From: a virus
IMG/VR virus record: IMGVR_UViG_3300030520_001144
Coordinates: 1-24,357 of that record
DNA length: 24,357 nucleotides
Reading direction: 5' to 3' (one strand)
In this document: in pieces, positions 4,611 through 24,357 of the stretch
Numbering within the stretch: the stretch's first letter is position 1
How the letters are laid out: every line of letters starts with the position of its first letter
Program-made: the position numbers and the translations under genes
Notes under the pieces: generated by a model
Database searches by the model: none
What the model was told of the DNA's origin: nothing
The model's input: only the letters and a program-made list of their open reading frames with translations

Positions 4611-4708
4611 CGTGTCTCACCGTGCCGGGTGATCCGGCCCACGTAAGATCAGATGATTCGCCGTATATTGGTATCCGCTGATTTTGAGGATGTTTTATAC
4701 ACGCGGAC
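4611..4708 (-). promoter_or_regulatory. Gap with likely promoter of the AlpA operon
   Basis: This 98-nt gap separates the integrase-linked gene (stop at 4709) from the AlpA-type gene. It is AT-rich for this genome in 4641-4700, with TATA-like stretches (for example TATAAAAC on the minus strand near 4691-4698 and TATACGG near 4661-4667). No clean -35/-10 pair stands out. Near the start codon a 5-bp hairpin, GCCGG (4624-4628) and CCGGC (4634-4638), would lie in the leader. A promoter here is inferred from position. Confidence 0.4.
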
Positions 4709-6603: not shown

Positions 6604-6649
6604 GCCTGCCCCAACAGCAGAAGCCGACGTTACCATATGTCGTCGGACT

Positions 6650-6722
6650 CTAAAAGCGGCGTATCCGGTAGTATCGTGGACAAACAGGCACTTATCGGGT
6701 GACAACCTGTCACTAAAAGTGG
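6650..6722. promoter_or_regulatory. Dyad and paired direct repeats upstream of integrase
   Basis: A perfect dyad GTGACA-acc-TGTCAC lies at 6699-6713. Two 10-nt direct repeats, CTAAAAGCGG (6650-6659) and CTAAAAGTGG (6713-6722), differ at one base and start 63 bp apart, about six helical turns. All sit between the integrase start (6603) and the att fragment (6757). That is where P4-type elements place arm sites for integrase and excisionase and the integrase operator. The dyad could be bound by the AlpA-type protein or by integrase itself. Sequence pattern seen; function inferred. Confidence 0.45.
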
Positions 6723-6756
6723 TCCTAAGAGGTCGATTTTCGCTGGTATAGAGGAG

Positions 6757-6769
6757 TCCGTCTCCGCCA
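6757..6769 (+). other. att site: tRNA-Ser 3'-end fragment
   Basis: TCCGTCTCCGCCA matches the 3' end of a tRNA-Ser gene: CGTCTCC is the 3' strand of a GGAGACG acceptor stem, then discriminator G (normal for tRNA-Ser) and CCA. No T-arm, anticodon arm or 5' half precedes it, so it is a remnant. It is followed by GAATTTTTTAA (6770-6780), a plausible tRNA terminator T-run. This is what remains when an island integrates into the 3' end of a tRNA gene. The intact tRNA-Ser should lie on the plus strand at the left end, outside the window. From 6781 to 6911 only small hairpins are seen (AACCC/GGGTT at 6796-6811; GCTCG/CGAGC near 6859-6878). Confidence 0.65.
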
Positions 6770-6911
6770 GAATTTTTTAAGACCATGCGTTAAACCCCCA
6801 AAAGGGTTGGCATATTCGAGCGCCCTGTACGTGGACGTCCGTTGCTACCGCGCGGCGGGCTCGAGCATGTGCGAGCTGGCAGCGGCGCCGGCGGTTCCGC
6901 TATCGGCGGCC

Positions 6912-7619
6912 CTACTGGCGAGCGGCGCTGCTCCGAAGCAGCGTAAAAAATCCGAACAACGAAAGCGCCGCGAGTGCGAACCACGTCAACGCGTAGACGA
7001 GGTGGTTGTTGGGAAAGCGCACGACCGTCAGCCCGCCCAGCGGCCAGCCGCCCGGATGGGGCGTCGCATCCGCATCGACGAAATAGGGTGCGACGCGCGA
7101 TAGTCCTCGGGCGCGGGTGATCGCGGCGACGTCCCGGGAATACCAGCGGCCGCTGCCCGGCTGGTTGGCCTGGAGCAGGCTGCCGCCGGGTTCCGTTAGC
7201 CGCAGGAGACCGGTGACGATCGTCTCGCGATCGCCCGAGGCGTTCGACAGCCGGGGCACCGTCGCGTGCCAAGCGGGCGGTACGAAGCCTCTGTTGACCA
7301 GAACGATGAAGCCCCGGTCGGTTTGAAGCGGACTCATCAGCCAGAAGCCCGGCCCCTGCTCGGTCAGCGCCTGGACGAGCGTATCGCGCCCGGCAAGGAA
7401 ATGACCGCGAACCTCAACGTGACGATAGGCGTCGTCCGCGGCGGTCACGCGATCCCAGCGCGGTTCGCCGGGCGGAGACACGGGCGGCGCGTGGACCCGC
7501 TGGTCGACGGCCTCGATCAGCGCGAGTTTCCAAGCGCGCCGCTCCATCTGCCACACGCCGAGCGCGCAGAAGGAGAGCGTCGCGACCAGGCAAAGCGTGA
7601 GGAAAAGCCAGCGTTTCAT
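6912..7619 (-). CDS. SURF1-family cytochrome oxidase assembly protein
   Basis: Inner-membrane assembly factor for the haem a site of aa3-type cytochrome c oxidase. It has 235 aa, normal for bacterial SURF1. It shows the expected two-helix layout: an N-terminal membrane segment (about 4-22, LFLTLCLVATLSFCALGVWQ) and a C-terminal one (about 209-229, LVYALTWFALAALSLFGFF). Between them is the periplasmic domain with VLVNRGFVP (about 111-119) and the typical NNHLVYALTWF entry to the last helix. ACAGGA lies just upstream of the ATG. In many relatives it follows cox genes; here it stands alone, divergent from the ABC-F gene across 205 nt, with no cox gene in view. It is core chromosome flanking the island. 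Confidence 0.93.
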   Translation of the reverse strand: MKRWLFLTLCLVATLSFCALGVWQMERRAWKLALIEAVDQRVHAPPVSPPGEPRWDRVTAADDAYRHVEVRGHFLAGRDTLVQALTEQGPGFWLMSPLQTDRGFIVLVNRGFVPPAWHATVPRLSNASGDRETIVTGLLRLTEPGGSLLQANQPGSGRWYSRDVAAITRARGLSRVAPYFVDADATPHPGGWPLGGLTVVRFPNNHLVYALTWFALAALSLFGFFTLLRSSAARQ

Positions 7620-7824
7620 TCCTGTCCCGTAACGCGTCGCCGTTCCGCATGCGAGTGGCGATCATGCCGATAGCCCGCTATGCTGGCAGTCGCATTTTGT
7701 GCGAGGGCGGTGCCAGCTTCAGGCGAGACCCCGCCACGCCGGCAAGGGCCCGAGCGGCCGCGACCGGGCGTGCGTCGATTCAGCCCCCTTTGTGCATCGC
7801 ACCAATGCTGCTACGCGCCCGCCC

Positions 7825-9699
7825 ATGCTTTCCTATCGCGACATCACCGTGCGGCTCGGCGGCCGGGCCATCATCGAGGGCGCCTCCGCGTCGATCCCGC
7901 CCAAGGCGCGCGTCGGGTTCATCGGGCGTAACGGCGCGGGCAAGTCGACGCTGATGAAGGTGCTCGCCGGGATGCTCGATGCCGACAGCGGGTCGGTCGA
8001 CATGCCGCGCGGCGCCAAGTTCGGCTATCTGCGCCAGGATGCGCCGGGCGGCGCGCTCTCGCCGTTCGAGACCGTGCTCGAAGCCGACACCGAACGCGCC
8101 AGCCTGCTCGCCGAGGCCGAGACCGCGCTCGACCCCGATCGGCTGGGCACGATCTACGAGCGGCTCGACCAGATCGACGCCTATACCGCCCCGGCGCGGG
8201 CGGGCGCGATCCTGAAAGGCCTCGGCTTCGACGACGCCGCGCAGGCGCGCCCGATGGAGAGTTTTTCGGGTGGGTGGCGGATGCGCGTCGCCCTGGCGAG
8301 CCTGCTCTTCACCAACCCCGACCTGCTGCTGCTCGACGAGCCTTCGAACCATCTCGATCTCGAAGCGGTGATGTGGCTCGAAGGATTCCTGCGCGCCTAT
8401 CGTGGGACGATCCTGCTGATCTCCCATGAGCGCGATCTGCTCAACAATGTCGCCGATCATATCCTGCATCTCGATAAGGGCGGGACGACGCTCTACGTCG
8501 GCGGCTATGACGCGTTCGAGCGCCAGCGCGCCGAGCGTGCCGCGCAGCTCGCCTCGGCTGTCGTCAAGCAGGCGGCGCAGCGCGAGAAATTGCAGGCGTT
8601 CGTCGATCGCTGGAAGGCCAAGGCGTCGAAGGCCAAGCAGGCGCAGAGCCGCGTGAAGGCGCTGGCGAAGATGCAGCCGATCGCGGCGATGGCGGACGAT
8701 CCCTCGCTGACCTTCTCCTTCCCCAATCCGGAAGGATTGAAGCCGCCGCTGCTGACGCTCGACAAGGCGTCGGTGGGCTATGAGGCGGGCAAGCCGATCC
8801 TGTCGCGGCTGATGCTGCGGCTCGATCCGGACGACCGCGTCGCGCTGCTCGGCCGCAACGGCAACGGCAAGACGACGCTCGCCAAATTGCTCGCGGGCGA
8901 TCTCGCGGCGATGGACGGCGTGGTGACCTCCGCGCCCAAGCTGACCGTCGGCTATTTCACTCAGTATCAGGTCGAGGAACTCGATCCGACCGATACGCCC
9001 GTCGATCTGATGGGCCGGCTGATGAAGGGCGCGGCGCCGGCGGCGGTGCGTTCGCAGCTCGGCCGTTTCGGCTTTTCCGGCGACAAGGCGCTGACGAAGG
9101 TCGGCAAGCTGTCGGGCGGCGAGCGCGCGCGGCTGGCGCTGGCGCTGGTGACGCATTCGGCGCCGCATCTGCTGATCCTCGACGAGCCGACCAACCATCT
9201 CGACGTCGACACGCGCGAGGCGCTCGTCCAGGCGCTCGCCGAATATCGCGGTGCGGTCGTCGTGGTCAGCCACGATCGCCACATGCTCGAGCTGGTCGCG
9301 GATCGGCTGGTGCTCGTCGATCAGGGCACCGCGCAGGAATATGACGGCACGATCGACGATTATGCCAAGTTCATCATCTCGGGCGGCAGCGGCGAGGCCA
9401 AGCCCGCGTCGGCGGGCGGCGTTGGTGCCCGCAAGGAGGATCGCAAGGCGGCCGCCGATCGCCGTGAGGCGACGCAGGGCATCCGCACGCGGATCAAGGA
9501 CGCCGAGACCGAGATGGCGCGGCTCGCCAAGTCGATCGCCGACATCGACGCGGCGCTGGCCGGAACGCCGCCGACGCCCGCGATGAAGCTGATGACGATG
9601 GGCCAGCTGATGAAGCGCCGTGGCGACGTCGAGCGGCTGCAGGCCGCGGTCGAGGCGGAGTGGATCGAGGCGACCGAAGCGCTGGAAGCGGCGGGGTAG
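7825..9699 (+). CDS. ABC-F family ATPase (YheS-like)
   Basis: A soluble protein with two ATP-binding cassettes and no membrane domain. ABC-F proteins bind ribosomes and act in translation or, in some branches, antibiotic protection; the exact role here is unknown. It has 624 aa from MLSYRDITV. Cassette 1: Walker A GRNGAGKS (34-41), signature SGGWR (148-152), Walker B LLLLDEP (167-173). A linker at about 232-300 holds coiled-coil arms (Lys/Gln/Arg-rich). Cassette 2: Walker A GRNGNGKT (343-350), signature LSGGERARLALA, Walker B LLILDEPTNHLD (449-460). A C-terminal coiled coil runs about 535-622. The ATG at 7825 starts the family's normal N-terminus. No SD is visible, and an earlier in-frame ATG (7699) adds only Arg/Pro-rich sequence. 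Confidence 0.93.
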   Translation: MLSYRDITVRLGGRAIIEGASASIPPKARVGFIGRNGAGKSTLMKVLAGMLDADSGSVDMPRGAKFGYLRQDAPGGALSPFETVLEADTERASLLAEAETALDPDRLGTIYERLDQIDAYTAPARAGAILKGLGFDDAAQARPMESFSGGWRMRVALASLLFTNPDLLLLDEPSNHLDLEAVMWLEGFLRAYRGTILLISHERDLLNNVADHILHLDKGGTTLYVGGYDAFERQRAERAAQLASAVVKQAAQREKLQAFVDRWKAKASKAKQAQSRVKALAKMQPIAAMADDPSLTFSFPNPEGLKPPLLTLDKASVGYEAGKPILSRLMLRLDPDDRVALLGRNGNGKTTLAKLLAGDLAAMDGVVTSAPKLTVGYFTQYQVEELDPTDTPVDLMGRLMKGAAPAAVRSQLGRFGFSGDKALTKVGKLSGGERARLALALVTHSAPHLLILDEPTNHLDVDTREALVQALAEYRGAVVVVSHDRHMLELVADRLVLVDQGTAQEYDGTIDDYAKFIISGGSGEAKPASAGGVGARKEDRKAAADRREATQGIRTRIKDAETEMARLAKSIADIDAALAGTPPTPAMKLMTMGQLMKRRGDVERLQAAVEAEWIEATEALEAAG

Positions 9700-9710
9700 A
9701 GCGGTAAAAA

Positions 9711-9866
9711 TCCCCCCTGCAAGGGGAGGGGGACCAGCCGCAGGCTGGTGGAGGGGTGGAGGCCTGGTGATACGAGTCTGCCGCTCGGTGCCGTATCCGT
9801 ACCGTCCGGCCTCCACCCCTCCACCCCCGGCTGCGCCGGCGGTCCCCCTCCCCTGCAAGGGGAGGA
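9711..9866. repeat. Palindromic intergenic repeat, family A (A1)
   Basis: This is a large imperfect palindrome. The left arm (9711-9763) starts CCCCCTGCAAGGGG and ends GGAGGGGTGGAGGCC. The right arm (about 9808-9866) is its reverse complement apart from a variable inner hairpin, starting GGCCTCCACCCCTCC and ending CCCTGCAAGGGGAGG. Each arm is itself a hairpin, so it resembles a pair of REP units. It fills the gap after the ABC-F gene and may also end that transcript. Related copies lie at 11775-11914, 15185-15340 and, more divergent, 22046-22143. Confidence 0.85.
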
Positions 9867-9894
9867 CCAAATAACCAAATACGCACCTTATCGC

Positions 9895-9923
9895 TTGACA
9901 GCGAACCGCTGATCTGACATAAG
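9895..9923 (+). promoter_or_regulatory. Sigma70-type promoter before the virion cluster
   Basis: TTGACA (9895-9900) is an exact -35 consensus. After a 17-nt spacer comes CATAAG (9918-9923), matching four of six -10 positions. It points into the virion cluster, whose first gene starts at 10004, giving a leader of roughly 70 nt. A near-consensus housekeeping promoter is unexpected for a cluster that, in other GTA hosts, is kept off in most cells. Computed from the sequence by eye only; no transcription data. Confidence 0.65.
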
Positions 9924-9948
9924 CAGGGCACGCTCAGAAATTGCGTCG

Positions 9949-9982
9949 AGGGCCGGGCGGTGGCGACACCGTTTCCGGCCCT
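9949..9982 (+). promoter_or_regulatory. Leader hairpin with GCGA tetraloop
   Basis: AGGGCCGG (9949-9956) pairs with CCGGCCCT (9975-9982). Inside, CGGTG (9958-9962) pairs with CACCG (9967-9971) around the GNRA-type loop GCGA. That gives about 13 bp with one small internal loop. It lies between the promoter and the first virion gene, 22 nt before the ATG. No T-run follows, so it does not look like a simple terminator. It could be an RNA-binding-protein or antitermination site, or a stability element. Structure seen; role inferred. Confidence 0.5.
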
Positions 9983-10003
9983 TGGCATGTCCGGGGAACG
10001 TGA

Positions 10004-10450
10004 ATGGCGACGAAGCGGACGATTGTGCCGGCGGGGCCGGCAAATTGGACCAAGACGCGCGAGCGGACCTTCCTCGAACATCTCGCGCTCAGTTCGAACG
10101 TAGCGGCATCCGAGCGGGTCGCGCTGGTGCCGCCGGGTGCCGCGTACCGTCACCGCATCAAGTCGGCGGACTTCCGCCGCAATTGGGAGACGGCGCTCAA
10201 GGAGGGCTATGACCGGCTCGAACTCGCGATGCTCGAGCGCGCGATCAACGGCGTCACCGTCGAGACGACGGCTGCGAACGGCAAGAAGACGAAGAAGATC
10301 GAATATTCCGAAGGTGCGGCGATGACGCTGCTTAAGGCGCACCGCGCTTCCGTCGCTGCGATCAACGCTTCTCAGGCTGCCAATGCGGCGGAGGCCGACA
10401 TCCTTCTGGTGATCGACGGCATGGCGCGGCGGATCGGTCATGGCGATTAA
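10004..10450 (+). CDS. Putative small terminase (GTA g1-like)
   Basis: A 148-aa protein in the place of the small terminase, which recognises or holds DNA for packaging by TerL. Residues about 18-75 (TRERTFLEHLALSSNVAASE to EGYDRLELAML) follow the pattern of phage helix-turn-helix packaging proteins: a helix, a short turn at SNVAA, a Tyr-Arg recognition stretch (AYRHRIKSADFRRNWE) and a third helix. The rest is helical, with a Lys-rich segment (about 85-95) that could touch DNA. GGGGAA lies 5 nt before the ATG. The stop lies 11 nt inside the large terminase gene, so the two are coupled. Family assignment is by pattern and position. Confidence 0.75.
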   Translation: MATKRTIVPAGPANWTKTRERTFLEHLALSSNVAASERVALVPPGAAYRHRIKSADFRRNWETALKEGYDRLELAMLERAINGVTVETTAANGKKTKKIEYSEGAAMTLLKAHRASVAAINASQAANAAEADILLVIDGMARRIGHGD

Positions 10451-11768
10451 GCGCGAACTGCTCAGTCTGACCGCGGGCGAGCTGGCGCGGATGAGCCAAG
10501 CGGACAGGGACAAGGCGTTTGAGGGGGTCGACGACGCCAGCCGCCAGACGCTGAAGACCTTTTGGCCGTTCCGGATCATGCCGGGGCAAGCGCCGCCGCC
10601 GGGCGACTGGCGCGTGTGGCTGCTGATGGCGGGGCGCGGCTTCGGCAAGACGCGGTGCGGTGCCGAATGGGTGCGGGGGCTGGCCGAACAGGATGGCCGC
10701 GCGCGGATCGCGCTGGTCGCGGCGACGATGGCGGAGGCGCGCAGCGTGATGGTGGAGGGCGTCAGCGGGCTGCTCGCGATTGCGCCGGCCGGCCTGCGCC
10801 CGCATTGGGAGCCATCGCTGCGCCGGCTCCGCTGGCCGGGCGGCGCGACCGCGACGCTGTTCGCGGCGAGCGAACCGGAAGGGTTGCGCGGGCCGCAGCA
10901 TAGCCACGCCTGGTGCGACGAGATCGCCAAATGGCCATATGGCATCGAGACGTGGGACAATCTCGCGATGGGGCTCCGGCTAGGCGACCGGCCGCGGATC
11001 GTGGCGACGACGACGCCGCGTCCGGTGCCGCTCGTGCGGATGCTGGTGGCGCGCGACGATGTCGCGACGACGGGCGGGCGGACGGAAGACAATCGCGAGC
11101 ATCTCGCGGCCGATTTCCTCGACGCGATGGCGGCGGGCTATGCCGGCACGCGGCTCGGCCGGCAGGAGTTGGACGGCGAGCTGATCGAGGAGGCCGAGGG
11201 CGCGCTGTGGAGCCGCGCGCTGATCGAGCGTTGCCGCGTGCGGCAGGCGCCCGGGGCGGTGCGCGTCGTCGTCGGTGTCGATCCGCCGGCGGGGGCGGGC
11301 GCGGCGTCGGATGCGTGCGGGATCGTCGTCGTGGCGCTTGGCGCGGACGGCATCGGCTATGTGCTCGAGGATGCCAGCGTGCAGGGGCTCGGCCCCGAGG
11401 GCTGGGCGCACGCGGTGTCGCTCGCCGCCGAACGGCACGATGCGGACCGGGTGATCGCCGAGGCGAACAACGGCGGCGCGATGGTCGAGAGCGTGTTGCG
11501 CGCGGCATCGGCGACGCTGCCGGTGAAGCTGGTTCATGCCTCGCGCGGAAAATCGGCGCGGGCGGAGCCGGTGGCGGTGCTCTACGAGAAGGGGCGGGTG
11601 GCGCATGTCGGCGCCTTCCCCGCGCTCGAGGACGAGATGGCGGGGCTGTTGCTCGACGGTTCTTACGTGGGCCCGGGGCGGTCGCCCGATCGCGCGGACG
11701 CGCTGGTGTGGGCGATGCATGCGCTGCTGCTGACGGGGCAGGCGCGGCCGGGATTGCGGACTTTGTAG
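10440..11768 (+). CDS. terL: Large terminase subunit (GTA g2-like)
   Basis: Packaging motor of 442 aa. The ATPase domain (about 45-215) has Walker A AGRGFGKT (64-71), an acidic pair at the end of Walker B (HAWCDE, D160/E161) and the coupling motif ATTTPRP (189-195). The RNase H-like nuclease domain (about 270-430) has its first acidic residue in VVVGVDPP (D281). The second is likely E341 in RVIAEANN, and the third is among D417/D420 in SPDRADALVWA. Length and order match GTA and HK97-type TerL proteins. All catalytic acids are present, so it is likely active. The ATG overlaps the upstream gene by 11 nt; the SD is weak, which suggests coupled translation. Confidence 0.96.
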   Translation: MAIKRELLSLTAGELARMSQADRDKAFEGVDDASRQTLKTFWPFRIMPGQAPPPGDWRVWLLMAGRGFGKTRCGAEWVRGLAEQDGRARIALVAATMAEARSVMVEGVSGLLAIAPAGLRPHWEPSLRRLRWPGGATATLFAASEPEGLRGPQHSHAWCDEIAKWPYGIETWDNLAMGLRLGDRPRIVATTTPRPVPLVRMLVARDDVATTGGRTEDNREHLAADFLDAMAAGYAGTRLGRQELDGELIEEAEGALWSRALIERCRVRQAPGAVRVVVGVDPPAGAGAASDACGIVVVALGADGIGYVLEDASVQGLGPEGWAHAVSLAAERHDADRVIAEANNGGAMVESVLRAASATLPVKLVHASRGKSARAEPVAVLYEKGRVAHVGAFPALEDEMAGLLLDGSYVGPGRSPDRADALVWAMHALLLTGQARPGLRTL

Positions 11769-11938: not shown

Positions 11939-13078
11939 ATGCGGCTTTTCGGATGGAAGGCGGCGCGCAGCGGCGCGCGGCCGGTGCTGACGCGCGCGTT
12001 CGGCGTGACCGGCGGGATCGGCGGGCCCACGCGAGGCGACTGGCCGAGTGGCTACGAGGCGCAGGTCCGCGCGGCCTATCTCGGCAATGCGGTGGCGCAA
12101 CGCGCGGTGCGGATCGTCGCGGAGAGCGCGGGCGGCGTCACGATTGATGTGGCGAGTGACGACCATCCGGTGGCGGGGCTGCTCGCAGGCATGGGCCAGC
12201 CGCTGATCGAGACGGTGGCGGCGCAGCTGCTGCTCCACGGCAACGCCTTCGTCCAGATCCTCGCAGACGCCGACGGCATGCCCGCGATGCTGTTCGCGCT
12301 GCGCCCCGAGCGCGTCACCATCGAGCCAGACGCGACCGGCTGGCCCGCCGCCTTCGTCTACCGCGCCGCCGGTCAGGCGTTGCGGATTCCGGTGGCGGCG
12401 CCCGATGGCCGGCCGGGCCTCGTCCACATCCGCACGATGCACCCGCTCGACGATCAATATGGCCTGGGCTGCCTGGGAGCCGCTGCCGGCCCGGTCGCGA
12501 TCCACAACGCCGCGACGCGCTGGAACAAGGCGCTCCTGGATAACGCAGCGCGACCCTCGGGCGCACTGGTTTATGATCCGGGCGACCCAGGCGCGACGCT
12601 GTCGCCCGATCAGTTCGCGCGGCTCAAGAGCGAGATGGAGGCGGGGTTTTCGGGGAGCGGCAACGCGGGGCGGCCGATGCTGCTCGAGGGCGGGCTCAAA
12701 TGGCAGGCGCTGAGCCTGACCCCTGCCGATATGGATTTCATCAACCTCAAGGCGGCGGCGGCGCGGGAAATCGCGCTGGCGTTCGGGGTGCCGCCGATGC
12801 TGCTCGGGCTGCCCGGCGACAACACCTACGCCAATTACAGCGAGGCCAATCGCGCGCTGTGGCGGCTGACGATCCTGCCGCTCGCGGACAAGATCGTCGC
12901 GGCGCTGGGGTGCGCGCTGGCGGCGTGGTGGCCGGACCTGACGCTGGCGATCGACCTCGACGCGATCCCCGCGCTGGCGGCGGACCGCACCGCATTGTGG
13001 TCGCAGGTGTCGGCGGCCGATTTCCTCGGCGACGACGAGAAGCGCGCGATTCTCGGCTTCGGGCCGCGAAATGCATGA
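11939..13078 (+). CDS. HK97-type portal protein (GTA g3-like)
   Basis: Dodecameric portal at the head vertex through which DNA enters and leaves. It has 379 aa, close to the usual 390-400 for GTA portals. Family signs are the N-terminal clip start (YLGNAVAQRAVRIVAE, about 44-59), the WNKALLDNAARPSG stretch (about 195-208), the MEAGFSGSGNAGRPMLLEGG loop (about 230-249) and the stem/crown region FGVPPMLLG followed by YANYSEANRALWRLTILPL (about 277-310). AGAAGGA lies about 7 nt upstream of the ATG, a strong SD. It ends within two codons of a family B repeat. Confidence 0.95.
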   Translation: MRLFGWKAARSGARPVLTRAFGVTGGIGGPTRGDWPSGYEAQVRAAYLGNAVAQRAVRIVAESAGGVTIDVASDDHPVAGLLAGMGQPLIETVAAQLLLHGNAFVQILADADGMPAMLFALRPERVTIEPDATGWPAAFVYRAAGQALRIPVAAPDGRPGLVHIRTMHPLDDQYGLGCLGAAAGPVAIHNAATRWNKALLDNAARPSGALVYDPGDPGATLSPDQFARLKSEMEAGFSGSGNAGRPMLLEGGLKWQALSLTPADMDFINLKAAAAREIALAFGVPPMLLGLPGDNTYANYSEANRALWRLTILPLADKIVAALGCALAAWWPDLTLAIDLDAIPALAADRTALWSQVSAADFLGDDEKRAILGFGPRNA

Positions 13079-13081
13079 CGC

Positions 13082-13160
13082 CGTTCCCCCGCGAAGGCGG
13101 GGGCCCAGGGCCGCAGGCGTCGCGCGTGAAACTCTGGACCCCCGCGTACGCGGGGGAACG
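13082..13160. repeat. Palindromic intergenic repeat, family B (B1)
   Basis: The outer arms CGTTCCCCCGCG (13082-13093) and CGCGGGGGAACG (13149-13160) are perfect reverse complements. Each arm also folds on itself (CCCCCGC-gaag-GCGGGGG on the left, CCCCCGC-gtac-GCGGGGG on the right). The middle carries the conserved CCCAGGG and CTCTGGAC parts. It fills the gap between the portal and the DUF6127 gene and ends 12 nt before the next ATG. Copies: 13499-13577 and 16858-16934. Confidence 0.9.
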
Positions 13161-13172
13161 AAGGAACGAAAT

Positions 13173-13493
13173 ATGACCGCCGATACCGAAAGCGCCCTGC
13201 TCGCGCGGCTCGTCGAGCAGGGGCAGACGCAGGGCGTCGATCTGCTCACCATCCGCGCGATCGCGGAGGAGGCAAGCGAATTGGGCGCGGCAAGGGCGCT
13301 CGAAAGGCTCGGCCTCGCCGATACCACCGCGCGCGCCGATCTCGGCGAGCTGCGCCAGCTGCTCTCGGCCTGGCGCGACGCCAAGCGCACCGCGCGCGAC
13401 GTCGTCATCGGCTGGGTGGTGCGCGTCACGCTCGCGGCGCTGATGCTGGGGCTGGCGGTGCGGCTGGGGCTCGTCGCGCTGGTGCGGTCGTGA
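13173..13493 (+). CDS. DUF6127-family small membrane protein
   Basis: A 106-aa protein found between the portal and protease genes in sphingomonad GTA-like clusters (recalled family DUF6127; function unknown). The first 75 residues are soluble and helical (ALLARLVEQGQTQGVDLL, then ARALERLGLADTTARADLGE). One hydrophobic segment (about 81-104, VIGWVVRVTLAALMLGLAV) follows and ends at VRS. The start is the ATG at 13173 with AAGGAA about 7 nt upstream; an open frame from 13071 would merely translate the repeat. A membrane anchor inside a head-gene block is unusual; a role in assembly at the membrane or in release is conceivable but unproven. Confidence 0.85.
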   Translation: MTADTESALLARLVEQGQTQGVDLLTIRAIAEEASELGAARALERLGLADTTARADLGELRQLLSAWRDAKRTARDVVIGWVVRVTLAALMLGLAVRLGLVALVRS

Positions 13494-16463: not shown

Positions 16464-16855
16464 GCACCGCCGCGCAGGCGCTCCAGCGCGCATTAATCGC
16501 GACGCTCCGGTCAGCGCCGTTCGCGCCGCTACTCACCGGGATATACGACGGGCCGCCCGCAGCCGCGATCTGCCCGTTCGTCGCGATCTCGGACGGATCG
16601 ACCAGCGACTGGAGCACCAAGGACCGGCGCGGCCGCGAGCACCGCCTCTCGATCGCGATCTGGGACGACGGCGCGGCCCCGGCGCGGCTGCACGATCTGC
16701 TCGGCCAGGCGCAGGATGCGATCGAGGCGATGCCGCGCGCGCTGCCCGGCCATGCCATCGCCAGCCTCGTCTTCCTGCGCGCGCGCGTCGTCCGCGACCC
16801 CGACGGGCCGTGGGCAGGCCGCCTCGATTACCGCGTGCGCACGCTGGAGGACTGA
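16460..16855 (+). CDS. Tail terminator, DUF3168 (GTA g8-like)
   Basis: A 131-aa protein of the DUF3168/gp17-like family that caps the tail tube and joins it to the head. The N-terminal helix AAQALQRALIATLRSAPF leads to the family motif TGIYDGPPAAAICPFVAISDGS (residues 26-47). Next come the RGREHRLSIAIWDD strand (about 57-70) and the helix ARLHDLLGQAQDAIEAM. The beta end FLRARVVRDPDGPWAGRLDYRVRTLED is also typical. Its start overlaps the 68-aa gene by 4 nt. Repeat B3 begins 3 nt after the stop. Confidence 0.9.
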   Translation: MSTAAQALQRALIATLRSAPFAPLLTGIYDGPPAAAICPFVAISDGSTSDWSTKDRRGREHRLSIAIWDDGAAPARLHDLLGQAQDAIEAMPRALPGHAIASLVFLRARVVRDPDGPWAGRLDYRVRTLED

Positions 16856-16857
16856 AT

Positions 16858-16934
16858 CGTACGCCGGCGAAAGCCGGAGCCCAGAGCCGCACGCGTGGCG
16901 CCTGCTTCCCTGGACCCCGGCTTTCGCCGGGGCA
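16858..16934. repeat. Palindromic intergenic repeat, family B (B3)
   Basis: Left arm: CGCCGGCGAAAGCCGGAG then CCCAGAG. Right arm: CTGGACCCCGGCTTTCGCC then GGGG. The arms pair with each other over CCGGCGAAAGCCGG and CCGGCTTTCGCCGG, and each also forms a local hairpin. It differs from B1/B2 at several stem positions but keeps pairing and the CCCAG/CTGG core. It fills the gap before the major tail gene, whose strong SD lies downstream of it. Confidence 0.87.
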
Positions 16935-16960
16935 CTATTCATTCAAGAAGGAGAATCGCT

Positions 16961-17368
16961 ATGTCCGCAGAAGCCGGCAGTGCTTTCCTGCTCAAGATCG
17001 GCGACGGCGGCACGCCGCCCGTCTTCGCCACCGTCGCGGGGCTGCGCACCACAATGCTCAGCATCGCAGGCGAGCTGGTGACGATCACCAATAAGGACAG
17101 CGGCGGCTGGCGCGAGCTGCTGTCGGGCGCGGGCACGCGCAGCGTGTCGGTCGCAGGCAGCGGCGTGTTCACGGGGTCGGCGGCGGAGGCGCGGCTCAAG
17201 GCCAATGCGCTCGCCGGCACGCTCGACGACTATCAGCTCTGCTTCGCCAGCGGCGGCACGATCCAGGGTCGCTTCCTGCTGACCAAGCTCGACTATAGCG
17301 GCGACTTCAATGGCGAGCGATCCTATACGGTTGCGCTCGAATCCTCTGGCTCGGTGGCAAGCTCGTGA
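16961..17368 (+). CDS. Major tail tube protein, TP901-1 type (GTA g9-like)
   Basis: Tail tube subunit of 135 aa, the usual GTA length. Typical stretches are GSAFLLKIGDGGTPPVFATV (about 6-25), TTMLSIAGELVTITNKDS (about 30-47), GWRELLSGAGTRSVSVAGSGVF and the end GDFNGERSYTVALESSG. The start is the ATG at 16961 with a very strong SD (AAGAAGGAG, about 6 nt upstream), the best in the cluster. That fits the high copy number of this protein per particle. The stop overlaps the next gene start as GTGA. Confidence 0.92.
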   Translation: MSAEAGSAFLLKIGDGGTPPVFATVAGLRTTMLSIAGELVTITNKDSGGWRELLSGAGTRSVSVAGSGVFTGSAAEARLKANALAGTLDDYQLCFASGGTIQGRFLLTKLDYSGDFNGERSYTVALESSGSVASS

Positions 17369-17735: not shown

Positions 17736-17942
17736 ATGATGACCAGTTTCACCGCCGCCGCCGCCCGCCTCGCCGGTCTCGCCGGCGCGATCGCCGGTTG
17801 GCGGCCCGACGAGTTCTGGCGCGCGACGCCGGCCGAGCTCGAGACCGTACTCGCCGCCTTCGCGTCTCCCGGCGCGAGTGCCGCGCCGCCGCCCGATGCC
17901 GCCGCGCTGGCGCGCCTCAAGGAGCAATATCCCGATGGATGA
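17736..17942 (+). CDS. Second tail assembly chaperone (GTA g10.1-like, TAC_6)
   Basis: A 68-aa protein of the small TIGR02216/Phage_TAC_6 family. The core ARLAGLAGAIAGWRPDEFWRATPAELETVL (about 10-39) is nearly diagnostic: the W-x-P-D-E-F-W and T-P-A-E-L pieces are the family signature. The end is Ala/Pro-rich, then LKEQYPDG. Two adjacent ATG codons (17736 and 17739) could both serve; the purine-rich SD sits at the edge of repeat C. The stop lies 8 nt inside the tape measure gene. With the preceding gene it makes the usual chaperone pair ahead of the tape measure. Confidence 0.88.
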   Translation: MMTSFTAAAARLAGLAGAIAGWRPDEFWRATPAELETVLAAFASPGASAAPPPDAAALARLKEQYPDG

Positions 17943-18516
17943 GACGATCGAGACGCTGCTCGTCGGTGTCCGCGCCGATACCGCGAGCTTCGCGCAGGAT
18001 GCCGCGACGATGCAGGCGTCATTGCAGACATCGCTCGGCAGCGGCGCCGCCAATGCCGGCAGCCTGATCGAGGCGGGCCTCGCCAAGGCGATCGCATCGG
18101 GCAAGCTCGGCTTCGCGGACCTCGAGAAGACCGCGCTCGCCGTCCTCTCGAACATCGCGGCGCAGGCGGTGACGAGCGGCCTGTCGTCGCTGCTCGGCGG
18201 GGTAAGCGGAAGCGGGGGCGGGCTGCTGTCGGCGGGCACGAGCCTGATCGGGTCGCTGTTCGGCCTGCCCGGTCGCGCGACGGGCGGTCCGGTGTCGCCG
18301 GGCCGGCCCTACATGGTCGGCGAGCAGGGCCCCGAGCTGTTCGTGCCGACCTCGGCGGGCAGCGTCGCGCCCGCCGCGTCGGGCGCCGCGCCGCGCGCGG
18401 TCAACGTCGCGATCAGCATCAATGCGCCGACCGCGACCGAACCGCAGGCGCTCGCACGATCGAGCCGGCAGGTCGCGCGCGCGGTCAATCGCGCGCTGGC
18501 GCAGGCGGAGCGGTAG
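17935..18516 (+). CDS. Very short tail tape measure protein (GTA g11-like)
   Basis: A 193-aa tape measure, far shorter than the 700-2000 aa of most siphophages but near the roughly 220 aa of RcGTA. The N-terminal helical part (about 14-80, including FADLEKTALAVLSNIAAQAV) is followed by a Gly/Ser-rich hydrophobic stretch (about 81-111, LLGGVSGSGGGLLSAGTSL). The GRATGGPVSPGRPYMVGEQG motif with PELFVP (residues 113-138) is found at the end of many tape measures. The helical tail is Arg/Ala-rich. Start at 17935, overlapping the chaperone by 8 nt. The gene ends 1 nt before the next ATG. A short tail is implied. Confidence 0.9.
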   Translation: MDETIETLLVGVRADTASFAQDAATMQASLQTSLGSGAANAGSLIEAGLAKAIASGKLGFADLEKTALAVLSNIAAQAVTSGLSSLLGGVSGSGGGLLSAGTSLIGSLFGLPGRATGGPVSPGRPYMVGEQGPELFVPTSAGSVAPAASGAAPRAVNVAISINAPTATEPQALARSSRQVARAVNRALAQAER

Positions 18517-18517
18517 C

Positions 18518-20839
18518 ATGGGCCAGGGCATCGGATGGTGGCTGGCGGCCGACGCCGACGCGGCGCGCGCGCAGAAACGCGCGACGGGCTGGGTCAAGCG
18601 CTTCGATCCGCGATTCTGGACGGTCAATTTCCCGCGCCCGATGATGGCGGCGGTGACGACGACGGGTCCGCAGGCGATGCGCGTCGATGCGGTGTTCTAC
18701 CGCACCGACGATCTCGCCGGGCTGATCTGGGCGTCGGCGGATAGCGTCGATCATCCGCTGCTGCGCTACGAGACCGCGGGCGACTATCGCGGCTGCACGC
18801 TCGCCTTCCACTGGCAATCGTCCGGGCTGATGCCGCTCGACGCGATCAACGGCCCGACGCTGACGATCGAGGGGCGCGACGCGTCTGGCACCGCGCGCAG
18901 CTGGTTCGTCCGGTTATGGAATTATGCGAGCGGCGACGCGCAGGATGCTCGAATATCGATCGATTTCGACAAGCTCGACGGTGGCTTCCTGCTGCCGGGC
19001 GAGGCGGACCCGGTGTGGGCGGGCGACGTCGACCGGATGTTCGTCTCGCTGGTGCCGCCGGGCTATACCGGCGCCGACGGCGAGCTTGCCGCATCCGCCC
19101 AGGCCTGGGTCGAGATCGACGCCATCGCCTGCGACGGCGCGGGCTCGACGCTGGCGATCGGCGACGGGCTCGTGCCGCCGCACGGCCTGTGCATCGCCAC
19201 CGGCTATGACGACGCCTACGACCAGACGCCCGCGCGGATGCTGCGCCAGATCGTCGCGCTCGGCTATCGCGGCGCGATCGACCATTATGTCGGGATGAGC
19301 CATTATTTCCGGCTCGAATGGAATGCGGGCGCGGGGCTTCACCTGATCAGCCTGGCGGGCGGCGTGCTCAACGTCGCCGCCGACGCCTGGCACCGCGATT
19401 TCCTGGCGCGCGCGACCGCGCTCGGCTTCGAGGTCATCCTGTCGATGTCCTACGAATTGCTCGACCAGCATGTCTGGAACGACTGGAAGCAGCGCGGACC
19501 CGACGGCGTGCAGGCGCTGACCGGCTGGGTGCCACCCTCGACGCTGCTGTCGCCGTGCGGCGCCGGCGCGATGAACTATCTCAAGACGATAGCGACCACT
19601 TTTGCGACAATGGCGAAGGCAGTCGGGCGGGTGCATTTCCAGCTCGGCGAACCCTGGTGGTGGGTGCGCGCCGACGGCACGATCTGCCTTCACGACGATG
19701 CGGCGCGAGCCGCGCTCGGGCCCGGCGTCGATGCGGTGGCGAGCGTCAGGGGGACGCTGACGCCCGCGCAGACCGCGGTGCTCGATGCGGCCGGCGCGTT
19801 GCTCGCGAGTTCGACTGCGGCGATCGCGGCTGCGGTGAAGGTCGTGGCGCCCGACGCCGAGACGCTGCTGCTCGCCTATCTGCCCACCGTGCTCGCCGCC
19901 GACAGCCCCGAACTTCGCCGCGCCGATCTGCCCGTTGGCTGGGCGAGCCCGGCGTTCGACCGACTCCAGCTCGAGGATTACGACTTCGTGCTCGCGGGCG
20001 ACGCCGGTGCTTCCGCACGGGGTGCCGCGACCGCCACCGCGCGGCTTGGCTATCCGCCCGAGCAGCAGGATTATCTCACGGGCTTCGTGCTCAACGCGCC
20101 CGATGCCGCGACCGAGTGGGCGCGCATCGCCGACGCGGCGGCCGAGGCCCGTGCGCGCGGCGTGCCGCGGATCTTCGTCTGGGCGCTGCCGCAGGTGGCG
20201 CGCGACGGCTTCACAATCTTCGATCTGGGGGAGGGGGCCTTGAACGCCTTCGACGATGTCGATTTTCCGCTGGCGCTCGGCGCGCAGGCAAGCGCCACGC
20301 CCGGCTTCTCGACCGCGATCGTCACGACCGCGGCGGGTGTCGAGCAGCGCAATGCCGACTGGGCCGACGCCCGGCTGCGCTTCGATGCCGGGCCGGGGGT
20401 GCGCGCCGAAACAGATATCGCGACGCTGATCGGTTTCTTCCGGGCACGCCGCGGCGCCGCTCGCGCGTTTCGCTTCCGCGATCCGTTCGACTTTGGCTCG
20501 GACGGCGACCAGACTCTCGGCACCGGCGACGGCGTCGCGACCAGCTTCGCGCTCGTCAAAAGCTACGGCACCGGCGATCCGCAGGTCCGCGCGATCACGC
20601 GGCCGGTGGCGGGCAGCGTCTCGGTCGCGCTCGGCGGCGAGGTGCTGGCGAGCGGCTGGAGCCTGCTCGACGGCGGAATCGTCTCGTTCGAGACGGCACC
20701 CGCGGTGGGCGTCGCGATCACCGCGCGCTATCTGTTCGACGTCCCCGTGCGCTTCGCCGAAGATACGCTCGAGGTCAGTCTCTCGACCTTCCTCGCCGGC
20801 GAGGCGCCGAGCGTGCCGCTGGTCGAGGTGCGGGAATGA
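18518..20839 (+). CDS. Tail sheath/TIM-barrel-like protein fused to DUF2460 distal tail domain
   Basis: A 773-aa protein in the position of GTA g12 (normally about 210 aa). Residues about 577-773 are a DUF2460/TIGR02217 domain, the GTA distal tail protein (FSTAIVTTAAGVEQRNADW at 597-615, IGFFRARRGAARAFRFRDPFDFGSDG at 638-663). The first 220 residues look like beta-rich sheets (RVDAVFYRTDDLAGLIW and ISIDFDKLDGGFLLPG). About 222-570 looks like a TIM barrel with GH-like strands: HGLCIATGYDDAYDQTP, VILSMSYELLDQHVW, VHFQLGEPWWWV (candidate acid E378) and IFVWALPQV. I recall sheath-like annotations for relatives of this fusion. Start ATG 18518; it abuts the tape measure and overlaps the hub gene by 4 nt. 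Confidence 0.8.
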   Translation: MGQGIGWWLAADADAARAQKRATGWVKRFDPRFWTVNFPRPMMAAVTTTGPQAMRVDAVFYRTDDLAGLIWASADSVDHPLLRYETAGDYRGCTLAFHWQSSGLMPLDAINGPTLTIEGRDASGTARSWFVRLWNYASGDAQDARISIDFDKLDGGFLLPGEADPVWAGDVDRMFVSLVPPGYTGADGELAASAQAWVEIDAIACDGAGSTLAIGDGLVPPHGLCIATGYDDAYDQTPARMLRQIVALGYRGAIDHYVGMSHYFRLEWNAGAGLHLISLAGGVLNVAADAWHRDFLARATALGFEVILSMSYELLDQHVWNDWKQRGPDGVQALTGWVPPSTLLSPCGAGAMNYLKTIATTFATMAKAVGRVHFQLGEPWWWVRADGTICLHDDAARAALGPGVDAVASVRGTLTPAQTAVLDAAGALLASSTAAIAAAVKVVAPDAETLLLAYLPTVLAADSPELRRADLPVGWASPAFDRLQLEDYDFVLAGDAGASARGAATATARLGYPPEQQDYLTGFVLNAPDAATEWARIADAAAEARARGVPRIFVWALPQVARDGFTIFDLGEGALNAFDDVDFPLALGAQASATPGFSTAIVTTAAGVEQRNADWADARLRFDAGPGVRAETDIATLIGFFRARRGAARAFRFRDPFDFGSDGDQTLGTGDGVATSFALVKSYGTGDPQVRAITRPVAGSVSVALGGEVLASGWSLLDGGIVSFETAPAVGVAITARYLFDVPVRFAEDTLEVSLSTFLAGEAPSVPLVEVRE

Positions 20840-21657
20840 GCGCGCCCGCCTGGCTGCAGGGCGCGCTCACCACGATGGCGCTGTGCTGGCGGCTCGACCG
20901 CGCGGACGGCGTGACGATCGGCTTCACCGCGCACGACCGCGACCTGACGATCGCGGGCGTCGTCTATCGGTCGAGCCCCGGCATGCTGCCCTCCGCCATC
21001 CACCAGTCGGACGGCTTCGACGTCGACACGCTCGACATCGACGGCGCGCTGACCAGCGACGCGATCACCGAGGCCGATCTGTCGGCGGGGCGCTGGGACG
21101 GTGCGACGCTGAGCCTGTTCGCGATCGACTGGACCGATCCCGCCGCCGATCCGCTACAGATCGCGCGCGGCGAGATCGGCGACGTCTCGATCAGCGACGA
21201 CGCCTTCACTGCCGAGTTGCGCGGACCGACCGCGCTGCTCGAGCGCCCGGTGGTCGAGCAGACCGCGCCCGACTGTCGCGCCACCCTGGGCGACCGTCGC
21301 TGCCGGATCGACCTGGCGCCGCGCACGCGGATCGCGACGGTGGCGACGGCAGCCGGGCAGGGGCTCACGCTGGATCAGGCCGAGCCCTCGGCCAACGCCT
21401 ATGGCTATGGCCGGCTGCGCTGGCTCGACGGCGCCAATGCGGGGCTCGTCGCGTCGATCGCGGCGTCGGACGGGACGGGGGCGACGCTGCGCGATCCGCC
21501 TGCCTATCCGACCGCCCCCGGTGCCTTGGTCGAGCTCGTCGAGGGTTGCGACCGGCGCTTCGAGACCTGCTGCACGCGCTTCGCCAACGCCGCCAATTTC
21601 CGCGGCGAGCCCTTCCTGCCGGGCACCGATCTGCTCACCCGCTACGGCACCGACTGA
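20836..21657 (+). CDS. Tail hub protein, DUF2163 (GTA g13-like)
   Basis: A 273-aa baseplate hub protein. The N-terminal DUF2163 part (about 5-165) has WLQGALTTMALCWRLDRADG and TIGFTAHDRDL. The C-terminal BR0599-type part has GCDRRFETCC and FANAANFRGEPFLPGTD (residues 249-265). Six Cys are visible: C17, C147, C156, C238, C245 and C246. C147, C156 and two of the last three fit the four-Cys iron-sulfur site that I recall from the RcGTA hub structure. The start overlaps the upstream stop as ATGA. The stop codon TGA (21655-21657) shares its last base with the next start (TGATG). Confidence 0.92.
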   Translation: MSAPAWLQGALTTMALCWRLDRADGVTIGFTAHDRDLTIAGVVYRSSPGMLPSAIHQSDGFDVDTLDIDGALTSDAITEADLSAGRWDGATLSLFAIDWTDPAADPLQIARGEIGDVSISDDAFTAELRGPTALLERPVVEQTAPDCRATLGDRRCRIDLAPRTRIATVATAAGQGLTLDQAEPSANAYGYGRLRWLDGANAGLVASIAASDGTGATLRDPPAYPTAPGALVELVEGCDRRFETCCTRFANAANFRGEPFLPGTDLLTRYGTD

Positions 21658-22133
21658 TGCCGCGACAGATGACACCGGCGCAGGCCGCGATCGTCGCGGC
21701 GGCGCGCGGCTGCGTCGGCGCGCGGTTCCAGCTGCACGGGCGGCAGGTCGCGACCGGGCTCGACTGCGTCGGCGTCGCCGCGCTGGCCTATGGGCGCGAC
21801 CATGTGCCCGCGGGATACGCGCTGCGCGGTGGTGACGTCATGACGATCAAGGCGGCGATCGAGGTCGCAGGCTTCGTGCGGACCGGGGTGCCGTGCCCCG
21901 CCGACCTGCTGCTGCTCGCGCCCGGCCCCTATCAGCATCATCTCGCGATCCTGACCGATCGCGGCTTCGTCCACGCCGATGCCGGGCTGCGCCGCGTCGT
22001 CGAGACACCCGGATTCCCATCGTGGCAATTGATCGGCGCCTTCAGCCCCTCCCCTTCAGGGGAGGGGTTGGGGTGGGGCGCATCTCGGAGCGCCGCGTTT
22101 GTGGCGAGGCCCCACCCCCGACCCCTCCCCTGA
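21657..22133 (+). CDS. NlpC/P60-type tail peptidase, C-terminus extended by repeat (GTA g14-like)
   Basis: Cell-wall amidase/peptidase expected to help the tail cross the envelope. The nucleophile is C37 in ATGLDCVGVAALAYG; the partner His is H95 in PYQHHLAIL, and H106 in GFVHAD is also present. It has 158 aa. The natural protein seems to finish around SWQLIGAF (residues 122-129). From about residue 130 the frame runs through repeat A4 (22046-22143) and stops inside it (TGA at 22131-22133), adding about 28 Pro/Gly/Ser/Arg residues. The core is intact, so the enzyme is probably active. Confidence 0.88.
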   Translation: MPRQMTPAQAAIVAAARGCVGARFQLHGRQVATGLDCVGVAALAYGRDHVPAGYALRGGDVMTIKAAIEVAGFVRTGVPCPADLLLLAPGPYQHHLAILTDRGFVHADAGLRRVVETPGFPSWQLIGAFSPSPSGEGLGWGASRSAAFVARPHPRPLP

Positions 22134-22143
22134 AGGGGAGGGG
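22046..22143. repeat. Palindromic repeat, divergent family A (A4), partly coding
   Basis: The left arm CCCCTCCCCTTCAGGGGAGG then GGTTGGGGTGGGGC pairs with the right arm GCCCCACCCCCGACCC then CTCCCCTGAAGGGGAGGGG. Each arm has its own hairpin (CCCCTCCCC-ttca-GGGG and so on). It is a related but distinct subtype: TTCA loop and GGGTTGGGGTGGGGC spacer instead of GGAGGGGTGGAGG. It overlaps the 3' end of the peptidase gene and ends before the tail-tip SD (AAGAAGGA). Confidence 0.88.
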
Positions 22144-22161
22144 AGTAAGAAGGACATCGTC

Positions 22162-24357
22162 ATGGCGACACTCGTGCTCACCGCGGTCGGGACCTTGGTC
22201 GGTGGCCCGATCGGCGGCGCGATTGGCGCGGCGATCGGCAGTACGATCGACCGCTCTATCTTCACGCCCAAGGGCGCGGTCGGCGCGCGGCTCGACAGTC
22301 TGGCGGTGCAAAGCTCGTCCTACGGCAGTGACCTGCCAAAAATGTTCGGCACGATGCGCGCCGCCGGCAGCGTGATCTGGTCGACCGACCTGCAGGAGAA
22401 CAAGCACAAGTCGAGCGCGGGCAAGGGCCAGCCCAAGACGACCAACTATACCTATTCGGCCTCGTTTGCGGTGGCGTTGTCGGCGCGGCCGATCCTCGCC
22501 ATCCAGCGCATCTGGGCGGACGGGCTGTTGCTGCGCGGCGCGGCGGGCGACTGGAAGAGCGATGTCGGCGCGTTCCGCGTCTATCTGGGCGACGAGACCC
22601 AGGCGATCGATCCGCTGATCGCGGCGGCGCAGGGGATCACGACGACCCCTGCGCATCGCGGGCTCGCCTATGTCGTGTTCGAGCAGCTTCAGCTTGCCGA
22701 CTATGGCAATCGCATCCCGTCGCTGAGCTTCGAGATCGTGGCGGACGACGGGCTCGTCACGCTGGCGACGATCGCGGGGCTATTGTCGGACGGCGACGTC
22801 GCCGGCACCGGCGGCCCCCTGCTGACGGGCTATGCCGCCGCGGGCGACAGCCTGCGCGGCGCGATCGAGGGGCTGGCGGCGGCGCTGCCCGTCGCCTTCG
22901 CCGATGGTCCCGACGGTGTCACGTTGGTCGACGAGTCCGCGGCGCCGACCGCGATCGACGCGACCGAACTCGGCAGTGCCGCCAACGGGAAGGCTGCGCC
23001 CAAAGTCGTGCTCGATCGCCAGGCGGCGGGCACGCTCAACGAAGCGATCGCGATCAGCTATTATGACCCGGCGCGCGGCTATCAGCTCGGCTCGCAGAGC
23101 GCGAGGCGCGATGCGTCTGCCAGGCGTGCGGGTGCGATCGATCTCGCCGCCGCGGTCGATGCCGCGAGCGCCAAGGCGATCGCCGAGGCGCGGTTGGCGC
23201 GCGAGTGGGCAGGGCGGACGACCGCGACCCTGACGCTGCCGTGGCGCCGGCTCGATATCGGCGCGGGCGCGCTGCTCTCGCTGCCCGGGCAGGACGGCGT
23301 CTGGCGCGTCACGACGCGCGGCTTCGAGGCGATGCTCGCGACGCTGACCGCGCAGCGTCTGCCAGGAGAGGCAGCGCCGCTACCGGTCGCGAGCGCGGGG
23401 GCGGGGGCGACCCAGGCCGATCTTCCTGCCGGTCCGACGACGCTCGCGCTGCTCGATCTGCCCTCGCTGGGCGACGATCCGCCGACCACGCCGACGCTGC
23501 TGATCGCCGCGGCGGGCGCGTCGGCGGTTTGGCGCAAGGCGACGGTGATGGCGAGCCTCGACGCGGGCGCGAGCTGGCAGACGATCGGCCAGACCGCGGC
23601 GGCGGCGGTGATCGGCACGACGCCGGACGCGTTGGTGCCGGGCAGTACGATGCTCACCGATGCGGTGACCGTGATCGACGTCGTTCTGCTCGACGATGCG
23701 ATGATACTGACCGGCAGCGACGCGACCGAAGCCTCCGCGACCGCCAATCTCGCGCTGATCGGCGACGAACTCGTCCAGTTCGCGACGGCGACGCAGACCG
23801 CGCCCCGCAGCTTCCGCCTGTCCGGCCTGCTGCGCGGGCGGCGCGGAACCGAATGGGCGATGGCGGGGCATGTCGCGGGCGAACGCTTCGTACTGGTCGA
23901 TGCCGACACGCTGTTGCCATGGACGCTGCCGACCAGCGCCATCGGATCGACCGTGATGATCGCGGCGAGCGGCGTCGGCGATGCCTCCCCCGCCGAGGCG
24001 AGCATCGTCTTCCAGGCGCGCGCGCTGCGTCCGCCGGCGCCCGTCGCGATCTCGGCTGCAACCCAGGCCGACGGCTCGATCCTCGTCGGCTGGACGCGCC
24101 GCAGCCGGATCGGCTGGGCGTGGCTCGACGATATCGACGCCCCGCTCGGCGAGGAGAGCGAGCGCTATCGCCTCACCGCGACGCGCGCGGGGGGCACGGC
24201 GATCTCGGTCGACACCGCCACGCCCGCGGCCACGCTCGCCGCCGCGGACCTCGCCGCGATCGGCGGCAGCGGCGCGCTGTCGTTAGCGATCGTCCAGATC
24301 GGCACCGCCGCCGCGACCCTGCCGCCCGCCACCTTCACCCTCATGCCGGGAGCCTGA
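22162..24357 (+). CDS. Tail tip/hub protein, Phage-tail_3 (GTA g15-like, short form)
   Basis: A 731-aa distal tail protein. The N-terminal Gly/Ala-rich segment (LVGGPIGGAIGAAIGSTIDR, about 10-29) leads to SYGSDLPKMFGTMRAAGSVIWSTD (about 54-77), the Lys-rich loop and the NYTYSASFAVALSARPILAIQRIWADG block (about 95-121). PSLSFEIVADDG (about 192-203) ends that part. A Phage-tail_3-like part follows from about 225 to 430, then beta-rich repeats and LSGLLRGRRGTEWAMAGH (about 554-571), which the GTA family shares. RcGTA g15 is about 1300 aa with a TIM-barrel insert; no such insert is visible here. The ATG at 22162 has AAGAAGGA about 7 nt upstream. The window ends exactly at its stop. Confidence 0.9.
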   Translation: MATLVLTAVGTLVGGPIGGAIGAAIGSTIDRSIFTPKGAVGARLDSLAVQSSSYGSDLPKMFGTMRAAGSVIWSTDLQENKHKSSAGKGQPKTTNYTYSASFAVALSARPILAIQRIWADGLLLRGAAGDWKSDVGAFRVYLGDETQAIDPLIAAAQGITTTPAHRGLAYVVFEQLQLADYGNRIPSLSFEIVADDGLVTLATIAGLLSDGDVAGTGGPLLTGYAAAGDSLRGAIEGLAAALPVAFADGPDGVTLVDESAAPTAIDATELGSAANGKAAPKVVLDRQAAGTLNEAIAISYYDPARGYQLGSQSARRDASARRAGAIDLAAAVDAASAKAIAEARLAREWAGRTTATLTLPWRRLDIGAGALLSLPGQDGVWRVTTRGFEAMLATLTAQRLPGEAAPLPVASAGAGATQADLPAGPTTLALLDLPSLGDDPPTTPTLLIAAAGASAVWRKATVMASLDAGASWQTIGQTAAAAVIGTTPDALVPGSTMLTDAVTVIDVVLLDDAMILTGSDATEASATANLALIGDELVQFATATQTAPRSFRLSGLLRGRRGTEWAMAGHVAGERFVLVDADTLLPWTLPTSAIGSTVMIAASGVGDASPAEASIVFQARALRPPAPVAISAATQADGSILVGWTRRSRIGWAWLDDIDAPLGEESERYRLTATRAGGTAISVDTATPAATLAAADLAAIGGSGALSLAIVQIGTAAATLPPATFTLMPGA

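Follow-up and report, generated by a model that had tools for sequence, protein, structure and literature searches.

The window, that is, the whole stretch of DNA that was analysed, is the 24,357-base IMG/VR record IMGVR_UViG_3300030520_001144 at its full length. Its nearest genome locus comes from a Sphingomonadaceae MAG (85% identity). Profile searches reveal in the right part of the window a head-tail cluster that is co-linear with that of RcGTA and runs in the order terminase, portal, protease, capsid, tail completion, tube, g10, tape measure, distal tail protein (Dit), hub, g14 and g15. The capsid is of the HK97 type, the protease is a prohead protease and g10 belongs to GTA-gp10. With this co-linear gene order and a tape measure of GTA size the cluster corresponds to a type I RcGTA-like GTA, and the window holds, on its sequence, a sphingomonad RcGTA-like gene transfer agent cluster. 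Positions 1-10000 have a host-like look although IMG/VR classes the record as viral, and at least one host-like gene, for an ABC-F ATPase (7699-9699), lies to the left of the cluster. The following genes are referred to below.

10440-11768, terminase
13071-13493, DUF6127 protein, between portal and protease
16895..17368, + strand, g9 tail tube protein
17935..18516, + strand, g11 tape measure, about 193 aa, GTA-sized
18518..20839, + strand, g12-position protein, 773 aa, fusion of NCTSP_N, TIM barrel and Dit
20836..21657, + strand, g13 baseplate hub (Gp84_N and BR0599), 273 aa, without a barrel
21657..22133, + strand, g14-position protein (tail peptidase position)
22162..24357, + strand, g15 megatron core, 731 aa, without the peripheral domain (RcGTA 230-744)

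The start of the fusion gene at 18518 is supported by its closest relative (L002), which starts at the equivalent position, and an in-frame ATG further upstream, at 18422, would run into the tape-measure gene. The g14-position protein reached no Pfam family in the Pfam profile search; its relatives were recovered by a profile of its own sequence. The DUF6127 protein sits inside the GTA cluster.

The 773-aa protein is composed of three domains, the middle one of which carries two conserved motifs.

18593..19162, + strand, NCTSP_N domain (PF23844), residues 26-215, homologous to N4 gp65 from residue 57
19175..20215, + strand, (beta/alpha)8 barrel (PF23845), residues 220-566, homologous to N4 gp65 351-416 plus gp64 111-408
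19646..19663, + strand, GEPWWW motif, residues 377-382, end of strand 4
19967..19984, + strand, QLEDYD motif, residues 484-489, end of strand 6
20246..20833, + strand, Dit domain (DUF2460/TIGR02217), residues 577-772, full-length match to RcGTA g12 and R4C Dit

In Pfam the protein matches NCTSP_N at residues 26-215 (6.2e-96), TIM-barrel_NCTSP at residues 220-565 (1.8e-153) and DUF2460 at residues 579-772 (2.6e-68). Both NCTSP profiles are covered over their full length, with the N-domain before the barrel, and score 319.6 and 511.1 bits against curated cut-offs of 27 bits, which places the protein in the NCTSP family. The distal tail family of Rcc01695 type is also matched over its full length, by PF09343 at 229.9 bits (cut-off 30.4) and by TIGR02217 at 191.7 bits (cut-off 136.65). 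An AlphaFold2 model built from 67 aligned relatives (mean pLDDT 88.4) contains a canonical eight-stranded alternating beta/alpha barrel at residues 222-570, with strands at 225-229, 253-258, 305-311, 373-377, 448-454, 482-486, 517-520 and 551-555 and helices between them. The best solved match of the barrel is phage N4 gp64 (Z 28.7, 2.8 A, 301 residues, 28% identity), which is followed by PgaB, GH42, GH35 and GH14 barrels, beta-galactosidases and beta-amylases among them, at Z 20-22; residues 221-573 superpose on glycoside-hydrolase TIM barrels at Z 19-22. Predicted structure and structural neighbours thus agree on a (beta/alpha)8 fold, and the original prediction, which had read the protein as a beta-rich N-terminus, a TIM-like middle and a DUF2460 domain, is confirmed by Pfam and AlphaFold2 alike.

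The 731-aa g15 protein has Pfam matches to Phage-tail_3 and Rcc01698_C, and no GTA_TIM domain was found in it by the Pfam search. It aligns to residues 24-232 and 777-1290 of the RcGTA megatron and the intervening stretch is unaligned. When compared with the published limits of the megatron domains (adhesin-like 47-229, peripheral 230-744, central 745-984 and fibre-binding 985-1304; PMC7296036), the missing part is almost exactly the peripheral domain. In keeping with this, the protein scores 418.5 bits with the GTA megatron equivalog NF048004, below the cut-off of 800, with the core matching and the middle missing. The g15 model (mean pLDDT 82.3) matches solved megatrons (6tba_8A, Z 29.6, 336 residues) and its predicted structure has no alternating beta/alpha stretch. 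The sphingomonad megatron retains the N-terminal, central and fibre-binding parts and lacks the peripheral domain. The short g15 had been expected to lack a barrel, and Pfam, the RcGTA alignment and the predicted structure bear this out. Structure prediction of both proteins, which had been proposed as a check together with a comparison with RcGTA, places a barrel in the g12 fusion and none in g15; the idea could have failed on a different fold at residues 222-570 or on a GTA-type barrel within the 731-aa protein, and the former region is a TIM barrel and the latter protein has no such domain.

It had further been proposed that the g15 barrel had moved into g12. This is contradicted, as the two barrels belong to different families by both profile search and profile-profile comparison. 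The g12 barrel is PF23845, of the phage N4 non-contractile tail sheath family, and is distinct from the PF13547 (GTA_TIM) barrel found in the megatron of RcGTA-type relatives, for example at residues 447-745 in L106. The 773-aa protein gives no PF13547 match at E-values up to 1 and falls outside GTA_TIM by profile and profile-profile searches. Compared with each other, the profiles of the two cassettes reach 0.7% and 1.8% probability, against 100% in the within-family controls (E-values 2e-170 and 3e-127), even for divergent members. Homology of the two barrels was therefore rejected after two negative profile-profile runs, the second of which included positive controls; a deep shared ancestry as TIM barrels would be compatible with such sequence comparisons. 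A literal transfer, in which sphingomonads would have shifted the GTA_TIM barrel from g15 to g12, would account for the constant total of barrels per cluster, with g15 lacking a barrel where g12 has one, and for the common layout of both cassettes, in which a N-terminal domain of ~200 aa is followed by a TIM barrel. It is nonetheless highly improbable, since it is already contradicted at the sequence level by the family assignments and the profile comparison, and the g12 barrel is closest to N4 gp64 and not to the megatron. No hidden GTA_TIM was detected elsewhere in the record or in the genomes of relatives, a single match of 19.4 bits lying below the 27-bit cut-off. The megatron of 8gtc/6tba is absent among the 50 structural neighbours listed for the fusion, which bears on neither side. 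The alternative that had been offered to the transfer, a distinct sheath-like decoration, came close to the mark, as the cassette is homologous to the N4 non-contractile tail sheath.

A GTA_TIM protein gives a weak GH113 match and the peripheral domain of R4C has been described as mannanase-like (PMC10276861), which suggests a glycoside-hydrolase-like character for either barrel. The two may hence have converged on one niche without the cassettes being related by descent. The data fit a scheme in which a non-homologous barrel, carried by a different protein, took the place of the megatron peripheral domain. The term replacement presumes an ancestor with a megatron barrel, and an ancestor with neither barrel would be compatible with the data too. 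Trees were built for the g15 core, the barrel, Dit and the hub. They are unrooted, weak in places and silent on the order of gain and loss, and the architectures cluster in them far more strongly than they do with labels shuffled.

The distribution of the two barrels was followed in two evenly drawn subsets of genomes, 289 for the class and 248 for the order Sphingomonadales. In the class sample the NCTSP barrel is found in 4 of 289 genomes and GTA_TIM in 29 of 289, with both together in none of the 289. Among the sampled Sphingomonadales the NCTSP barrel exceeds the cut-off in 129 of 248 genomes, mostly as one copy, and the megatron C-domain is present in 143 of 248; GTA_TIM exceeds the cut-off in none of the 248. 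It is likewise missing from all 19 genomes with the cassette that were searched for it. When the loci are read one at a time, the Dit of intact sphingomonad clusters is fused and measures about 745-866 aa, with a g15 of about 700-874 aa. In all 19 loci chosen for GTA_TIM the Dit measures about 193-263 aa and g15 1204-1498 aa, with about 500-600 aa separating the two conserved parts of the latter. Among the loci read, no sphingomonad GTA cluster combines a free Dit and a short g15 with no cassette. The fused-Dit and short-g15 pattern is lineage-wide in Sphingomonadales, the group across which the original prediction had suggested searching for the fusion.

Eight loci with a megatron C-domain but no cassette (L301-L308) were read, and in all eight Dit and cassette have been lost together; part of the hub is often lost as well and g15 is kept whole or in part. 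In L302, 57 residues of NCTSP_N remain, joined to a truncated hub. These loci were considered as counter-examples and rejected as such, for with Dit and cassette gone together they look like deletion remnants. They represent decaying sphingomonad clusters and an apparent common route of GTA loss. The IMG/VR locus L093 has the same fused architecture at only 45% identity and, in the trees of g15, barrel and Dit, stands apart from the sphingomonad clusters. On account of this one divergent cluster, confinement of the architecture to Sphingomonadales is only probable. The baseplate modules of two further loci, L279 (genome G369) and L280 (G325), have inserts of about 200 aa in the hub and of about 420 aa in the megatron; the inserts have no Pfam match and mostly no match to the GTA_TIM peripheral profile, and G325 has two megatron C-domain matches.

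The same cassette occurs on other proteins. In five prophages (L274-L278), four of which come from the Sphingomonadales sample, the NCTSP_N-TIM pair lies N-terminal to the hub. They resemble the window in the cassette, the short g15 and the neighbourhood (Dit, NCTSP-hub, g14, short g15), but differ in that the cassette is on the hub (899-1088 aa) and the Dit is separate (209-215 aa). In two loci of Sphingomonas endophytica the cassette is found at the C-terminus of a Phage-tail_3 protein.

L034:6916-10797 and L035:7249-10764, Phage-tail_3 plus cassette proteins, 1294 aa and 1172 aa

The phages Loki, fJoAci01 and Phapecoctavirus ECO340P2 also have NCTSP_N plus a TIM barrel, but in these NCTSP proteins there is no Dit domain, and Loki encodes a separate 205-aa distal tail protein just upstream. 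The gp65:gp64 sheath of N4 (PDB 9lc0, 9yf4 and 9yf5; chains I and M of 9lc0 are gp65 and gp64) shares with the window NCTSP_N, the barrel and the GEPWWW and Q-x-E-D-Y-D motifs. Unlike in the window, the N4 barrel is split, with two beta-alpha units, the first ones, on the gp65 segment and the others on gp64, and it is a part of a podovirus sheath that is not fused to Dit. The split agrees with the published gp64:gp65 heterodimer, and the text of that report makes no mention of a barrel of this kind (PMC12633501). RcGTA g12/g15 (6tba) and R4C (8gtc) share with the window the Dit, the hub and the N-terminal, central and fibre-binding parts of the megatron; in contrast, their megatron peripheral domain has the other barrel (PF13547 in relatives) and their Dit has about 210 aa. 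Found on Dit, on the hub, on the tip protein or alone, the cassette behaves as a mobile tail-tip module.

Since the cassette also occurs in real phages and prophages, the fusion could be a phage trait without GTA function, left in a defective prophage. This is improbable on several counts. The barrel is present in about half of the sampled Sphingomonadales genomes, mostly as one copy, and the left part of the IMG/VR 'viral' window holds host-like genes. Moreover, the tape measure is GTA-sized (193 aa), whereas three of the five prophages have ORFs of 815-837 aa in the tape-measure position just upstream of Dit. The coding regions are also under purifying selection, with dN/dS about 0.2-0.3 in NCTSP_N, barrel and Dit.

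Conservation within the barrel points to a pocket. In the 67 sequences G377, E378, P379, W380 and W382 are invariant, and GEPWWW is also present in N4 gp64; in QLEDYD the invariant residues are Q484, E486, D487, Y488 and D489. The C-terminal ends of the strands form the active site of TIM barrels, and here they hold 27 of the 51 invariant barrel residues in 56 of 349 positions (p about 1e-11), with 5 of the 51 at the N-terminal ends, as placed by predicted strand position. The invariant residues at the C-terminal ends include D231 and D232 (strand 1), H262 (strand 2), E313 (strand 3), E378 in GEPWW (strand 4) and E486, D487 and D489 (strand 6), such that the invariant acids sit on strands 1, 3, 4 and 6. 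By its position at the end of strand 4, within the invariant GEP, E378 corresponds to the acid/base glutamate of clan GH-A. The nucleophile of clan GH-A enzymes follows strand 7, and no invariant acid lies near residues 517-526. The usual GH-A pair is therefore absent, which makes classical GH-A retaining chemistry doubtful and means that the pocket may only bind.

That the barrel is an active glycoside hydrolase, which cuts capsule or exopolysaccharide like tailspike depolymerases, is accordingly a possible but doubtful reading. The invariant acids on four strands and the GH42, GH35, GH14 and PgaB barrels as nearest cellular folds would suit it, and the Dit part matches PHROG 2913, which bears the name glycoside hydrolase, although as a label only; the strand 7 end without an invariant acid does not, and a search for a CAZy family assignment found none. 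The main rival to a glycan role is structural, with the NCTSP cassette bracing the tube-Dit-hub junction and the pocket a relic. In N4 the family forms a sheath round the tail tube (PMC12633501), and NCTSP_N too holds invariant residues, which lie away from the barrel pocket. Yet conservation in the barrel is concentrated at the catalytic face, and GEPWWW and QxEDYD are kept in N4, where a mere scaffold would have no need of them; a purely structural role is thus unlikely.

The reading that we consider probable is that the tail-tip barrel was replaced, not moved, and that the N4-type barrel on Dit engages a surface glycan. An N4-type cassette (NCTSP_N plus TIM barrel) precedes the Dit domain in the distal tail protein, and the Dit-borne barrel would take over the task of the megatron barrel that is lacking. 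In both RcGTA (PMC7296036) and R4C (PMC10276861) the established structures show a Dit hexamer and a megatron trimer. As Dit is a ring of six copies, the fusion should put six barrels round the tail end, if the stoichiometry is kept. As in N4, where the gp64:gp65 sheath is six-fold around the tail tube and has a receptor role (PMC12633501), six barrels would sit on the tube end as compared with three on a megatron trimer. The conserved pocket is then envisaged to bind, and possibly cleave, a cell-surface glycan at first contact. Copy number, position on the particle and glycan role are all inferred, with engagement of a glycan or receptor during adsorption the most likely function and hydrolysis a possible one. 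The glycan-binding or glycan-cutting role that had been ascribed to the barrel is plausible on the basis of the model. Against it counts N4 itself, in which glycan binding is presumed to lie with the gp66 appendage (PMC12892993). A bolder extension, to be regarded as rather doubtful, is that the NCTSP barrel founds an unnamed glycan-active tail-tip family with its acids on strands 4 and 6 in place of strands 4 and 7, whose cassette has been passed among Dit, hub, tip protein and stand-alone sheath, and which would form a six-fold enzymatic collar in Sphingomonadales GTAs in place of the megatron barrel.

The difference in g12 and g15 length between Sphingomonadales and other orders is in print, in a methods section only (PMC7360931), and no cause for it was found in the literature searched; replacement of the barrel offers an explanation. 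The parts are known, in that Pfam already has the domain family, whilst the combination, its order-wide distribution and the logic of replacement appear to be undescribed in the literature searched. Among the papers found there was no structure of a sphingomonad GTA particle and no enzyme assay. A 2026 preprint, which includes a newly built RcGTA megatron peripheral domain, calls the function of the megatron TIM-barrel unknown and reports that species outside the Rhodobacterales are without TspA, the tailspike that touches it (PMC13420450). The cassette links the best-studied GTA family to the adsorption apparatus of phage N4. Moreover, the function of the tail-tip barrel becomes a testable comparison between unrelated barrels in the same niche of related GTAs, and a biochemical activity shared by the two would point to that function.

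This barrel family is encoded by at least 585 IMG/VR stretches, and the collection is probably inflated by sphingomonad GTAs. Two imperfect, REP-like palindromes lie inside the GTA cluster, one at 16850-16944, which precedes g9, and one at 22046-22143, which lies between g14 and g15 and shares sequence with the 3' end of the g14 ORF.
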